From Ignavibacteriales bacterium (GTDB lineage Bacteria; Bacteroidota; Ignavibacteria; UBA10030; SZUA-254): a stretch of DNA of 64,000 bases. The DNA lies in contig JACRMQ010000003.1 in the NCBI GenBank assembly GCA_016214905.1, positions 62,001 through 126,000 on the forward strand, read 5' to 3'. This document shows positions 364 to 48,855 of the stretch, one piece after another (within the stretch, counting starts at the first letter, position 1; each line of letters opens with the position of its first letter). The position numbers and the translations under genes were made by a program. Under the pieces are notes generated by a model. That model was not told the origin of the DNA. It ran no database searches and saw nothing but the letters and a program-made list of their open reading frames with translations.

Positions 364-3300
364 ATGAAGCTTTATCGTATTTTATTTTTCTCCGTTTTTT
401 TCACTCTCTTTTCGATTATCGGTTTCAGTCAATCGATCATCATAAATGAGATTTATAATTCAAGTAGCACAGACGAATGGATCGAACTGTTGGTAGTGCA
501 AGACGGACTCGATGTGCGGGGATGGGATATCCGCGATTTTTCGAGTAGCGGAACTGCCCAAACTCCGTTAGTATTTTCTACTCATTCAACATGGAGCAGT
601 TTAAAAGCCGGTACTATTATAGTCGTTGCTCGATCGGAAAATACATTCAATGAAGATACAGATCCGGGTGATTATACTCTTACCATTAAGTCTAATAACG
701 CCACATATTTCAGCGGTAATGTTTTTTCAGTAGCGGGGAGTAGCGAGGCAATTGAGATTCGGAATGCATCTCAGGTCCATATCTTCGGTGTATCGTGGGG
801 AGCGAATAATGCGTCGAGTTTACCTGATCCCAAGGTTCATTTTACTGCCTCTGCGACATCAAGTACTGCAACCGCATTTACAGGTGATGCCGTTGGTCAA
901 TTAACGAACACAGCTAATTGGGCGCAGAATACAGTCAGCATTACGCGAGGTGCGGGAAATACTGCTGCCAATATCGCCTGGCTCAATCTATTGCGTGCCC
1001 GCGCCGATGGATCAGGGAGTGTATCATTTAGTCCTACCGTTGTCAACGGTAATGTCGATACAACGCTTACCATGGTTTACACCCGCAATATTGGTTTTAA
1101 TGTAAACAATCTGCGGTTGATCATTCCTGCATCATTTGGTTGGTCGAAGGATACAGCCGATGTATTCTTTACCGATATGACAGCAGTGAAGAGTATTTCA
1201 GGAGATACAATATATTTCACCAACATAATTTTCTCATCGGATTCATCTATCATTATGATACCGCATATTATAACTCCGATGTACACAGGATATTACAAAA
1301 TAAAACTTCAATCCGGTGTTGACGGATCATACGGTGACGTCTCACCAATCTCCGTCATGACCGTTTATGGAGCTCCTGTTCCAATTGCCGAAACAAAAGT
1401 AAACGACGCTAATGGCGTAGCAACTCGCATCGGGGATCTTGTTACAGTCCGGGGTATTATTACTGCTTCCAATCAGTTCCCAAGCCCAAGTTATATCCAA
1501 GATAATTCCGGCGGTATGTCAATTTATAACGTTCCCTTTTCATCAACCGTCAATATTGGCGACGAAATATTAGTGAGTGGTAAGGTAACTCAATTTAGTG
1601 GACTGAACCAGATTGAATTGCCAATTCTTCATTCGATCATCAGTACCGGAAATATAATTGATCCAATTGTCGTAACTCCCTCTGCAGTAAACAACGATGG
1701 GATTGGGGGTATAGAGAATTACGAGGGTCAACTTGTCCGTTTAAATGGTGTCACAGTTACTGAATTAAATGGTACCGTTGTAGCCAATTGGAGTGGTGGA
1801 ACGAGTGGAAAGAATTATCGTTTGACAGGTGCTTCTCTAAGTGATACATTGCAAATAAGAATAGACGAGAGCACGAATATTCCCGGTGTTGTGGCACCGG
1901 CAGGAGCTTTTGATGTCATCGGAGTGATCAGCCAGTATAAGACGACGAGTCCGTTCATCGGTGGTTATCAAATTATGCCACGCTCAACCCAAGATATTAT
2001 TTCTGAGGGTCCGTTATTCGCGGAATTTCCGCAGGAAATTGAATTAACCCCGTCTTCGCTCGCGATCACGTGGAAAACAATCTCACCGGGGACATCCCGC
2101 ATTCGTTATGGGATGACGACATCGTACGAGCTTGGTGTAGTGGGAGTACATGCAGATTCAATGCAGACTGACCACTATGTACCGCTTAATGGTTTATCGG
2201 TTGCAACCATCTATAACATACAAGCATTTTCCACAAGCGGGACCGATACAAGTTTTGCTGGTAATCTTATTGTAAGCACAACCTCCGATGCACCAACAAC
2301 CGGAGTGATCAATGTTTATTTCAGCAAGAGCATCAACACGTCTGTCTCTTCAGGCGAAACAGCATTCGGGAACTACGATTTGACATCAAAACTCGTTCAA
2401 CGTATTAATGATGCGAAGCGTTCAATCGATGCGTCCATTTATAGTCTTAGTGGTACGGTTGGTGCGACAGTAGCGAACGCGCTGGTTAGCGCGAAAAATC
2501 GTGGTGTGAACATCCGTGTGATTGGCGAGTACGATAATCGAACCACTGCCCCCTGGACAACATTATCGAACAATGGTGTTCCGGTGATCTTTGATCTGTA
2601 TGGCGTAAATGACGGTACAGGGTTACAGCACAATAAATTCTTAGTGATCGATTACAAAGGCGGCGCACCTGAAAGTGTTTGGGTGTGGACAGGTTCATGG
2701 AATTTGACCGATCCCGGTACCAACGATGACAGACAAAATGTTATCGAATTTCAAGATGTCGCGCTCGCAGGTGCTTACACTGTTGAGTTCGAAGAGATGT
2801 GGGGAAGCAGTACACAAACACCCAATTCATCCGTTTCACGATTCAGTGCTCGCAAGACTAACAACACCCCGCATAAATTTATCATAGGTGGAAAAAATGT
2901 CGAATGTTATTTTAGTCCAAGCGATCGAACAACATCCCAGATCGGGAAAACATTAGGCAAAGCAGAACATTCAATCAATGCTGCGCTTCTCACTTTTACC
3001 CGGCAAGACCTTGCCGATAGTGTTGTGAATAAAAAGAACTCAGGAAAGACAACACGTGTGTTGATGGATAACAATGTAGACACAGGCAATCAGTACGCAT
3101 ATCTCCAATCGAATGGAGTAGATGTATTATTGAACGTCGGCACCGGTTTCCTGCATCATAAATACGCGCTGGTTGATGCGGAACATATGAACGGAATGTC
3201 GTATACGATCACCGGTTCGCACAACTGGTCGAACTCCGCGGAAACCAAGAACGATGAGAACACTGTCATTGTTAAAGATGACCGGATCACAAATCTTTAT

Positions 3301-3681
3301 CTCCAAGAGTTTGCCGCTCGTTATTACGAAGCAGGCGGAACGAACAACATCGTTCTGGGTGTAACTGAAACCGACGGTGGAATTCCGTCGTCGTTCTCAT
3401 TGTCGCAGAATTATCCTAATCCGTTCAACCCGACAACAGATTTCGGATTTCAGATTGCCGATTTCTCCGCCGAAGGCGGATCCGCCTCTGGCGGAGCATT
3501 TGTTTCTTTGAAAGTGTTCAATCTTCTCGGACAGGAAGTTGCGACAATAGTGAACGAAGAGATGAAGCCCGGAAGTTACAAAGTCACTTGGGATGCGAGT
3601 AAGATGTCAAGTGGTGTTTATTTCTACCGCTTACAATCCGGAAAATTCACTGATGTGAAGAAGATGGTGCTGATGCGATAA
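364..3681 (+). CDS. Secreted multidomain phospholipase-D-fold protein with type IX sorting domain
   Basis: An extracellular enzyme that probably cleaves phosphodiester bonds in nucleic acid or phospholipid; the substrate is inferred. Residues 1-22 are a signal peptide. Residues about 25-150 look like a lamin-tail domain (IIINEIYN...DEWIELL). Residues about 345-470 resemble an OB-fold nucleic-acid-binding module, and about 560-650 a fibronectin-III-like domain. Two PLD half-domains follow. The first has H756, K758 and D763 followed by TGSWNLTD. The second has H931, K933 and D938 followed by TGSHNWSNSAE. Both HxKx4D motifs are intact, so the active site can form. The C-terminus (SQNYPNPFNPTT, then VFNLLGQEVATIV and VYFYRLQSG) is a type IX secretion sorting domain, implying export across the outer membrane. 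Codons 1035-1044 are a 30-bp palindromic insertion (separate entry). The gene appears monocistronic, with a hairpin terminator downstream. Confidence 0.85.
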   Translation: MKLYRILFFSVFFTLFSIIGFSQSIIINEIYNSSSTDEWIELLVVQDGLDVRGWDIRDFSSSGTAQTPLVFSTHSTWSSLKAGTIIVVARSENTFNEDTDPGDYTLTIKSNNATYFSGNVFSVAGSSEAIEIRNASQVHIFGVSWGANNASSLPDPKVHFTASATSSTATAFTGDAVGQLTNTANWAQNTVSITRGAGNTAANIAWLNLLRARADGSGSVSFSPTVVNGNVDTTLTMVYTRNIGFNVNNLRLIIPASFGWSKDTADVFFTDMTAVKSISGDTIYFTNIIFSSDSSIIMIPHIITPMYTGYYKIKLQSGVDGSYGDVSPISVMTVYGAPVPIAETKVNDANGVATRIGDLVTVRGIITASNQFPSPSYIQDNSGGMSIYNVPFSSTVNIGDEILVSGKVTQFSGLNQIELPILHSIISTGNIIDPIVVTPSAVNNDGIGGIENYEGQLVRLNGVTVTELNGTVVANWSGGTSGKNYRLTGASLSDTLQIRIDESTNIPGVVAPAGAFDVIGVISQYKTTSPFIGGYQIMPRSTQDIISEGPLFAEFPQEIELTPSSLAITWKTISPGTSRIRYGMTTSYELGVVGVHADSMQTDHYVPLNGLSVATIYNIQAFSTSGTDTSFAGNLIVSTTSDAPTTGVINVYFSKSINTSVSSGETAFGNYDLTSKLVQRINDAKRSIDASIYSLSGTVGATVANALVSAKNRGVNIRVIGEYDNRTTAPWTTLSNNGVPVIFDLYGVNDGTGLQHNKFLVIDYKGGAPESVWVWTGSWNLTDPGTNDDRQNVIEFQDVALAGAYTVEFEEMWGSSTQTPNSSVSRFSARKTNNTPHKFIIGGKNVECYFSPSDRTTSQIGKTLGKAEHSINAALLTFTRQDLADSVVNKKNSGKTTRVLMDNNVDTGNQYAYLQSNGVDVLLNVGTGFLHHKYALVDAEHMNGMSYTITGSHNWSNSAETKNDENTVIVKDDRITNLYLQEFAARYYEAGGTNNIVLGVTETDGGIPSSFSLSQNYPNPFNPTTDFGFQIADFSAEGGSASGGAFVSLKVFNLLGQEVATIVNEEMKPGSYKVTWDASKMSSGVYFYRLQSGKFTDVKKMVLMR
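3466..3495. repeat. 30-bp double-hairpin element inserted in frame in a coding gene
   Basis: Two perfect 15-bp palindromes abut: TCCGCCGAAGGCGGA, then TCCGCCTCTGGCGGA. Each is a 6-bp stem with a 3-nt loop. The element begins exactly on a codon boundary and adds ten codons (SAEGG then SASGG) to the type IX sorting region, between the SQNYPNPFNP box and the FVSLKVFNLLGQ strand. A second copy with the same 15+15 layout and an identical second hairpin lies at 32918-32947. It resembles in principle the palindromic elements known to insert in frame in Rickettsia genes. Confidence 0.8.
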
Positions 3682-32785: not shown

Positions 32786-32860
32786 CGGAACGTGGCGCAG
32801 CCCGGCTAGCGCACTTGCTTGGGGTGCAAGGGGTCGCGGGTTCAAATCCCGCCGTTCCGA
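32786..32860 (+). tRNA. tRNA-Pro (anticodon GGG)
   Basis: The acceptor stem CGGAACG pairs with CGTTCCG, and discriminator A is at 32860. The D arm GCGC...GCGC, anticodon stem CTTGC/GCAAG and loop TTGGGGT place GGG at positions 34-36. The T arm GCGGG-TTCAAAT-CCCGC is complete. CCA is not encoded. A rho-independent terminator follows after 5 bp, and a partial duplicate of the 3' half follows that. Confidence 0.95.
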
Positions 32861-32865
32861 CAAGA

Positions 32866-32896
32866 AAGTCGTGTAGAAAAACACGGCTTTTTTTAT
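32866..32896 (+). terminator. Terminator of the tRNA-Pro gene
   Basis: AAGTCGTGT (32866-32874) pairs with ACACGGCTT (32881-32889, one G-T pair) across AGAAAA, followed by a run of T. A near-identical second terminator lies at 32969-32998. Confidence 0.88.
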
Positions 32897-32917
32897 TTAT
32901 GTCAAAGTCGCGGGTTC

Positions 32918-32947
32918 TCAGCCGTAGGCTGATCCGCCTCTGGCGGA
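32918..32947. repeat. 30-bp double-hairpin element in the T-loop of the tRNA fragment
   Basis: TCAGCCGTAGGCTGA (32918-32932) is followed directly by TCCGCCTCTGGCGGA (32933-32947), two perfect 6-bp-stem, 3-nt-loop hairpins. The second is identical to the second hairpin at 3481-3495; the first shares the TCxGCC...GGCxGA frame. The intact tRNA beside it shows the uninterrupted sequence (GGTTC/AAATCC), so the insertion junction is exact to the base. Confidence 0.85.
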
Positions 32948-32968
32948 AAATCCCGCCGTTCCAACAAG

Positions 32969-32998
32969 AAAGCCGTGAAAGAAACACGGCTTTTTTTA
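32969..32998 (+). terminator. Duplicate tRNA-Pro terminator
   Basis: AAAGCCGTG pairs perfectly with CACGGCTTT across AAAGAAA, followed by TTTT. It differs from the first copy by compensating and near-compensating changes, so the stem is preserved or improved. Confidence 0.85.
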
Positions 32999-48408: not shown

Positions 48409-48855
48409 TTACTTCTTTGTTCCTTTTTCGTGCTTGCAATCTGCCGAGCACTTCTCTTTACATTCTTTGCTATCGGGTTTGCACTCACCTTTTGCCATCT
48501 TTTCTTTGCATTCTTTACTATCGTGTTTGCATTCACCTTTCGCCATTTTATCTTTGCACTCCTGGCTGCCGTGTTTGCATTCGCCTTTTGCCATCTTATC
48601 TTTGCATTCTTTGCTTTCAGGATCGCATTGCACCTTTGCGGTTTTATCTGCGCATGTTGCAGCACAATCTTTCGCTTTATCACCGGTCATGCTCGGACAG
48701 GTTGCTTTTGCATCCTTGGATGATGCCTGTTTGCCGCTCATCGGGCATTTTACTGTTTCTTTTTTTGCGGCTTTGTCGTCACCGGCATAAAGCGCCATAG
48801 CTACGATCAAAATAGCAATCGTAATAATCGATGTGAATATAATTAGTTTTTTCAC
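48409..48855 (-). CDS. Cys-rich repeat protein, probable metal-binding periplasmic protein
   Basis: A 148-residue protein from the GTG at 48855, preceded by AGGAGA. A longer reading from 48984 would overlap the upstream gene by 113 bp and is rejected. Residues 3-23 are a hydrophobic signal or anchor. CPMSGK (37-42) is a CPxSG-type motif. Three perfect-length 16-residue repeats (83-98, 99-114, 115-130) follow the pattern ECKxKMAKGECKxxSx, and a partial fourth unit follows. There are 14 Cys in the mature part, many with Lys/His/Asp neighbours. This suggests metal binding outside the cytoplasm, fitting the sigma/anti-sigma/CnrX-like genes upstream. Low-complexity composition makes homology hard to judge. 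Confidence 0.7.
   Translation of the reverse strand: MKKLIIFTSIITIAILIVAMALYAGDDKAAKKETVKCPMSGKQASSKDAKATCPSMTGDKAKDCAATCADKTAKVQCDPESKECKDKMAKGECKHGSQECKDKMAKGECKHDSKECKEKMAKGECKPDSKECKEKCSADCKHEKGTKK
48466..48609 (-). repeat. Three 48-bp tandem coding repeats
   Basis: Encodes the three 16-residue units of the Cys-rich protein. The units differ at a few bases, mostly in the D/E, H/P and S/Q codons. The reading frame is kept throughout, which argues for selection on the protein rather than random expansion. Confidence 0.8.

Follow-up and report, generated by a model that had tools for sequence, protein, structure and literature searches.

A 30-bp double-hairpin element, probably mobile, dispersed in Ignavibacteria and other bacteria

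Results

Two double hairpins in a protein gene and a tRNA remnant

The window, a stretch of 64,000 nucleotides from an Ignavibacteriales genome, contains two copies of a 30-bp element, one in a gene for a secreted PLD-like protein and one beside a tRNA gene (Table 1). Each copy is made of two abutting 15-bp palindromes with 6-bp stems and 3-nt loops: copy 1 reads TCCGCCGAAGGCGGA/TCCGCCTCTGGCGGA and copy 2 TCAGCCGTAGGCTGA/TCCGCCTCTGGCGGA (here and below, a slash marks a junction or an insertion point). An earlier reading of the window from its letters alone (the sequence-only reading) had described both elements in this way, including the second palindrome common to the two, and it was right in each respect. 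The unit pattern TCNGCCNNNGGCNGA matches the window four times, compared to 0.03 expected by chance.

Table 1. Coordinates of the two copies and of the features around them in the window.
Feature	Position	Strand	Description
Element copy 1	3466-3495	.	30-bp double hairpin; units 3466-3480 and 3481-3495
Host gene of copy 1	364-3681	+	secreted PLD-like protein, C-terminal type IX sorting domain
Intact tRNA-Pro(GGG)	32786-32861	+	T-loop GGGTTC/AAATCCC, the empty site for copy 2
Left part of duplicated tRNA-Pro T-arm fragment	32910-32917	+	GCGGGTTC, directly 5' of copy 2
Element copy 2	32918-32947	.	30-bp double hairpin; units 32918-32932 and 32933-32947
Right part: duplicated T-stem, 3' acceptor strand and terminator hairpin	32948-32997	+	78% identical to 32844-32893

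The host protein of copy 1 has PLDc_2 and Por_Secre_tail domains. As the sequence-only reading had it, the element lies in the type IX sorting domain (residues 1017–1102), where it adds ten codons from a codon boundary (phase 0) and encodes SAEGGSASGG in frame. That reading had also considered that the ten residues might be a conserved part of the PLD protein fold, yet PLD orthologues in other genera lack them. An unrelated type IX protein in another genome (G298) has SAKGGSASGG at the same point of its sorting domain. At this point the PLD orthologue of a same-genus genome (G294, locus L199) carries a different insert of similar length, about PAGVHGTQAGS. Type IX sorting domains also contain, at one place, a single 15-bp unit (L009, 1501–1515) or its peptide SASGG, seen there and in the orthologue from G223 (L201), preceded by DGS or DAS and followed by SGVYYY; half-elements may therefore also insert or remain.

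Copy 2 lies between TTC and AAA of the T-loop in a duplicated 3' fragment of tRNA-Pro, 56 bp from the intact gene, whose T-loop had correctly been taken for the empty site. The fragment belongs to a tandem duplication of the tRNA-Pro 3' end and its terminator hairpin (32844–32893 and 32948–32997), the second member of which is split by the element. Elsewhere in the window, a 48-bp sequence is repeated four times in tandem (48452–48691, minus strand) and encodes 16-residue Lys/Cys-rich repeats of the MAKGECKHGSQECKDK type.

A fixed core with covarying arms

The consensus of the full element is TNNGCC-NNA-GGCNNA followed by TNNGCC-TNN-GGCNNA, a 30-bp pattern that is its own reverse complement, with a fixed core and arms that covary. 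Among the 227 distinct hits to TNNGCCNNNGGCNNATNNGCCNNNGGCNNA in all fetched sequence, the four free arm pairs are all complementary in 157, compared to 0.9 expected; the complementary arms are of 13 types, and those of the two halves vary independently. The first loop is NNA and the second TNN in 167 of the 227. Kissing between the loops can be set aside, as loop 2 is the complement of loop 1 in 22 hits versus 24.9 by chance, and so can a pairing of the halves, whose arms match in 65 hits versus 67 by chance. Folded as single-stranded DNA, three of three copies tested form two hairpins, which in copy 1 have 6 bp and 3-nt loops. As RNA, copy 1, whose halves have the same arms, favours one long hairpin and copies with different arms keep two. 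Because nearly all variation in the arms is compensatory, we infer that the folded hairpin pair is what is recognised.

In the genome of the window, a loosened search found the arms CC/GG, CA/TG, GC/GC or GA/TC, with most units in abutting pairs; the first loop is usually GAA-like and the second TCT- or TTT-like. The same genomes repeatedly contain other short palindromes of high GC content, CCTGCC-N-GGCAGG at 17 loci and TCCCGAT-N-ATCGGGA at 5 (L108, L133, L005 and L030 are among the loci with such sequences), which suggests further mini-palindrome families.

Copy number and host range

We searched the genome of the window (G000; 3.3 Mb in 10 contigs) by sequence pattern and found 26 units matching TCNGCCNNNGGCNGA, compared to 0 in a reversed control, and 11 doubles matching TNNGCCNNNGGCNNATNNGCCNNNGGCNNA. 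The sequence-only reading had made its case depend on further 30-bp copies, which these are; the 15-mer that it singled out has eight exact matches. The phenomenon is far larger in extent than that reading had it. Doubles are present in 60 of the 294 genomes of the class, with up to 34 in one genome, and the reversed pattern gave 0 in all of them.

Scanning a single genome for each species extended the range: among the matches listed, most are from Patescibacteria, Ignavibacteria, Omnitrophota, Kiritimatiellae, Elusimicrobia and similar groups. Copies were counted in 40 genomes taken from the listed matches, the copy numbers for Patescibacteria being those of genomes already known as carriers. 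In 37 genomes of other phyla the count is 1–46, with 1–25 in Patescibacteria genomes of 0.6–1.2 Mb, 46 in one Kiritimatiellae genome and 16 in one Elusimicrobia genome. Three actinobacterial genomes were discarded as chance matches, with a single hit in each GC-rich genome of 6–8 Mb and loops that do not fit. Carriage by phages was also set aside: the element is rare on viral contigs, and of 41 hits there most are due to chance and about 15 look real.

In the Elusimicrobia genome (G332), 16 copies were inspected, of which 12 are the identical 30-mer in either orientation, with common microrepeat words adjacent and unrelated outer flanks. Identical 30-mers in unrelated outer flanks point to recent copying. 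Copies in a Firestonebacteria genome are embedded in a longer repeat family. At G332 loci L375–L388 and at other loci, elements lie within heptamer-like microrepeats such as GTTGATA, GAAAGTT and GAAATTG.

Target sites, empty and occupied

Insertion is exact: 30 bp are added at TTY/RAA without target duplication. The logo of 154 unique sites is (A)TTY/RAA, with T at −2 in 0.77 and A at +2 in 0.76 of sites. Direct repeats flank 17 sites (1.55 expected), but these are short, heptamer-like microrepeats that run through the empty site, and we rejected them as target-site duplications.

One target is itself a repeat. A GTAG-type REPIN hairpin, GCAGACAT/AAAGTCTGCGG (also GCAGACAT/AAAGTCTGCGGCTAC), has dozens of empty copies across 10 of 30 relatives, and three empty copies are in G000, where the hairpins at L020 and L023 carry exactly 30 extra bp at the slash. 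A single insertion may lie behind both, because they have a longer repeat in common. This REPIN family (GTAGCCGCAACCTT...GTCTGCGGCTAC; L020, L023, L236 and L245 in G000, L228–L247 in relatives) persists in G000 without any Y1/RAYT gene match.

Structured RNA genes are also targets. Insertions at TTC/RAA of the T-loop occur in 3' fragments of tRNA-Pro, Ser, Thr, Val and Ile, D-loop insertions in 5' fragments, and an anticodon-loop insertion at L164; these remnants nearly always adjoin an intact tRNA. Within element loci, 18 of 50 tRNA or tmRNA genes are at most 150 bp from a copy, compared to 2.8 expected. A full-length tmRNA (RF00023, 157 bits) is occupied in its PK1 region, between GTTCCC and GGGAAC and upstream of a tag ending in YALAA. 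Flanks form 9 stems of at least 6 bp versus 2.3 in shuffled pairings, and the site is within a hairpin loop in 48% of cases versus 39% in shuffled pairs; this preference is modest and partly due to the tRNA and REPIN sites. Beside intact tRNAs we also noted pseudo-tRNAs in which a long or short-looped perfect hairpin replaces the anticodon arm (L282 at about 1413–1480, L034, L071 and L162).

One reading frame in proteins

Among the 154 sites, 45 are in open reading frames of at least 150 amino acids, 34 of them in phase 0. Without three chance-like viral hits, the phase counts are 33:4:5 (p 2e-9). Copies that are open in all three forward frames behave in the same way, 32 using phase 0 and 2 using phase 1. 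The phase-0 peptide is mostly SAxGGSA(S/F/L)GG, and because the element is self-complementary, the same linker SAxGGSA(S/F)GG results from either orientation. It is most often preceded by Phe, which corresponds to the target TTY, and followed by Lys. TCCGCC arms occupy both halves in 26 of the 34 phase-0 copies versus 27 of the 109 others, and 67 of those 109 have a stop in frame 0.

Copies are found in RpoB, PheT, UvrB, DnaG, UvrD-like and TRCF/Mfd-like helicases, an iron hydrogenase, HsdR, GH57, a glycosyltransferase, cysteinyl-tRNA synthetase and type IX sorting domains. Aligned to its solved relative 3sp1, cysteinyl-tRNA synthetase has a gap of exactly 10 residues; gaps in RpoB and the UvrD-like helicase are less clean. 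The linker looks benign, and the host proteins presumably stay functional.

A nuclease family tracks the element

Clustering of the reading frames at element loci brought up a small GIY-YIG nuclease. Across 64 genomes of the order, GIY-YIG genes number 8.7 on average in genomes with elements versus 3.8 in those without (AUC 0.90), and within-family permutation matched this correlation in 0 of 20000 trials. Generic transposase load does not account for it, since DDE_Tnp_1 reaches an AUC of only 0.55. About 10 of 132 element loci have GIY-YIG genes; 7 of 12 such genes are at most 150 bp from an element (0.68 expected), and all are within 812 bp. At L004 and L036 the order is an intact tRNA-Ser, the GIY-YIG gene and a T-arm fragment with the element, and L164 has a tandem array of [5' tRNA fragment with element, GIY-YIG] followed by an intact tRNA-Ser. 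The link may nevertheless be secondary, because elements are present in only 2 of 30 loci centred on a GIY gene (about half have a nearby tRNA) and both may favour tRNA remnants. Small GIY-YIG genes also form tandem arrays of three to five with constant spacing (450, 317 and 289 bp; G165:C1:120132-122135, G119:C1:1733881-1734727 and G283:C2:77137-77927).

Discussion

Taken together, these sequences are very probably an ultrashort mobile element that is non-autonomous and palindromic, exactly 30 bp long and built of two abutting 15-bp hairpins. That the window copies represent a mobile or copied palindrome was proposed in the sequence-only reading, and it gains support from copy number, empty and occupied sites, homogenised genome-specific sequences and in-frame protein insertions. 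Three features go beyond that reading: the near-single reading frame in proteins, the indifference to orientation, and the enrichment of GIY-YIG nucleases and tRNA fragments beside copies. Against this reading, the comparison, which uses one genome per species, showed no insertion at the level of strains. The many dispersed copies of the element lie precisely at TTY/RAA, lack target duplication and are homogenised within genomes; a minority of the targets are apical loops of other hairpins. It probably moves in trans, by means of a host- or element-encoded enzyme that would recognise folded single strands. The small free-standing GIY-YIG family might be that enzyme, or might open the target; a role for it as one or the other is a tentative suggestion that we consider unlikely on present evidence, and it could instead do no more than produce the tRNA remnants where insertions persist. 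It is tempting to speculate that all copies form one cross-phylum family, spread by a tRNA-homing GIY-YIG nuclease that opens hairpin loops, and acting as an in-frame linker mutagen (SAxGGSAxGG) of essential enzymes in either orientation, but this fuller scenario is a shade more doubtful still.

A mobile element of this form brings to mind REP-like sequences moved by an IS200/IS605-type Y1 (RAYT) transposase, which recognises single-strand hairpins and makes no target duplication. The hairpin form and the missing duplication fit, PF01797 is found in 57 of 60 genomes with the element versus 174 of 234 without (Fisher p 2e-4), and Y1 counts give an AUC of 0.74 in the 64 genomes of the order. However, this effect is gone once GIY-YIG enters a rank regression, G000 has no PF01797 match despite its 11 doubles, none of 10 Y1 loci examined has a unit, the 132 element loci contain 1 Y1 gene, and the element has no GTAG end. 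Given this weak association we rejected Y1/RAYT as the mobiliser, and the explanation is improbable. Slightly less probable again is that no dedicated enzyme is involved and that template switching at hairpins during replication, followed by fixation through drift, produced the copies. Clean insertions and the position of some sites in hairpin loops or short microrepeats speak for it; a fixed 30-bp unit, one 16-position core across several phyla, a fixed target TTY/RAA and the copies in G332, homogenised throughout that genome although their outer flanks are unrelated, speak against it. A fixed unit and target with homogenised copies point instead to templated copying of one entity.

Selection for a host feature that arose repeatedly, such as a terminator, a processing or nucleoid site or a useful linker, could draw on the strong hairpins and the benign-looking peptide. 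It is very unlikely: copies have no consistent position and occur within essential enzymes, in tmRNA and in the loops of REPINs, most genomes of the class lack the element, and empty sites are common. As many hosts are metagenome-assembled, an assembly or sequencing artefact also comes to mind, but the element recurs across independent projects, one of its host genomes is a single contig (G119), it is in frame and phase-selected in genes, and the reversed-pattern control is 0, which leaves this explanation a negligible chance.

Several known systems resemble the mobile palindrome favoured here. Rickettsia palindromic elements (RPEs), about 100–150 bp long, are likewise palindromic repeats tolerated in frame within protein-coding genes. 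The sequence-only reading drew this analogy, which stands for behaviour, namely in-frame tolerance, and fails for membership: our element has 30 bp and two hairpins, occurs in many phyla, gives an orientation-independent peptide and ends in T...A, whereas the RPEs of R. conorii have a CGTC end (PMC3733652). It works like RPEs and belongs to no family tested. REP/REPIN palindromes with RAYT transposases, of GTAG and CGTC families (PMC3733652; PMC3116915), are also short dispersed hairpins, some intragenic, without obvious target duplication; unlike them, the element lacks a GTAG or CGTC tag, flanks no RAYT in the 10 Y1 loci examined, and has itself entered the hairpin loop of a GTAG-type REPIN. 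Nor is it like a MITE, with terminal inverted repeats and target-site duplication, since an occupied REPIN or tRNA site is longer than its empty counterpart by exactly 30 bp. A GIY-YIG homing element would encode or adjoin its endonuclease; here nuclease genes occur in about 10 of 132 element loci, and elements in 2 of 30 GIY-centred loci. Similar, too, are the cyanobacterial SDR, which Elhai and colleagues are said to have reported in 2008 as very small mobile palindromic repeats of about 20–30 bp; genes for structured RNAs and other repeats are reportedly their precise insertion sites, and they have no known mobiliser. Size, palindromy and precise insertion are alike, and the hosts differ. 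Double-hairpin and repetitive hairpin elements (DHE and RHE) have a hairpin or two-hairpin architecture and an unknown mechanism of mobility, and we know of no fixed 30-bp unit among them that is read in one protein frame. Both are mitochondrial (PMC2800124), unlike the element here. We found no description of this element in the open-licence literature.

To our knowledge, no mechanism of spread has been demonstrated for ultrashort palindromic repeats of this size. The present family ranges into genomes under 1 Mb, and its copy number is tracked by one gene family; with exact boundaries, a defined target and mapped empty sites, this makes the question of spread directly testable. Through the element, one flexible linker peptide is also planted naturally in core enzymes, RNA polymerase and cysteinyl-tRNA synthetase among them; in these cases, as with its insertion in tmRNA, no loss of the gene is visible.
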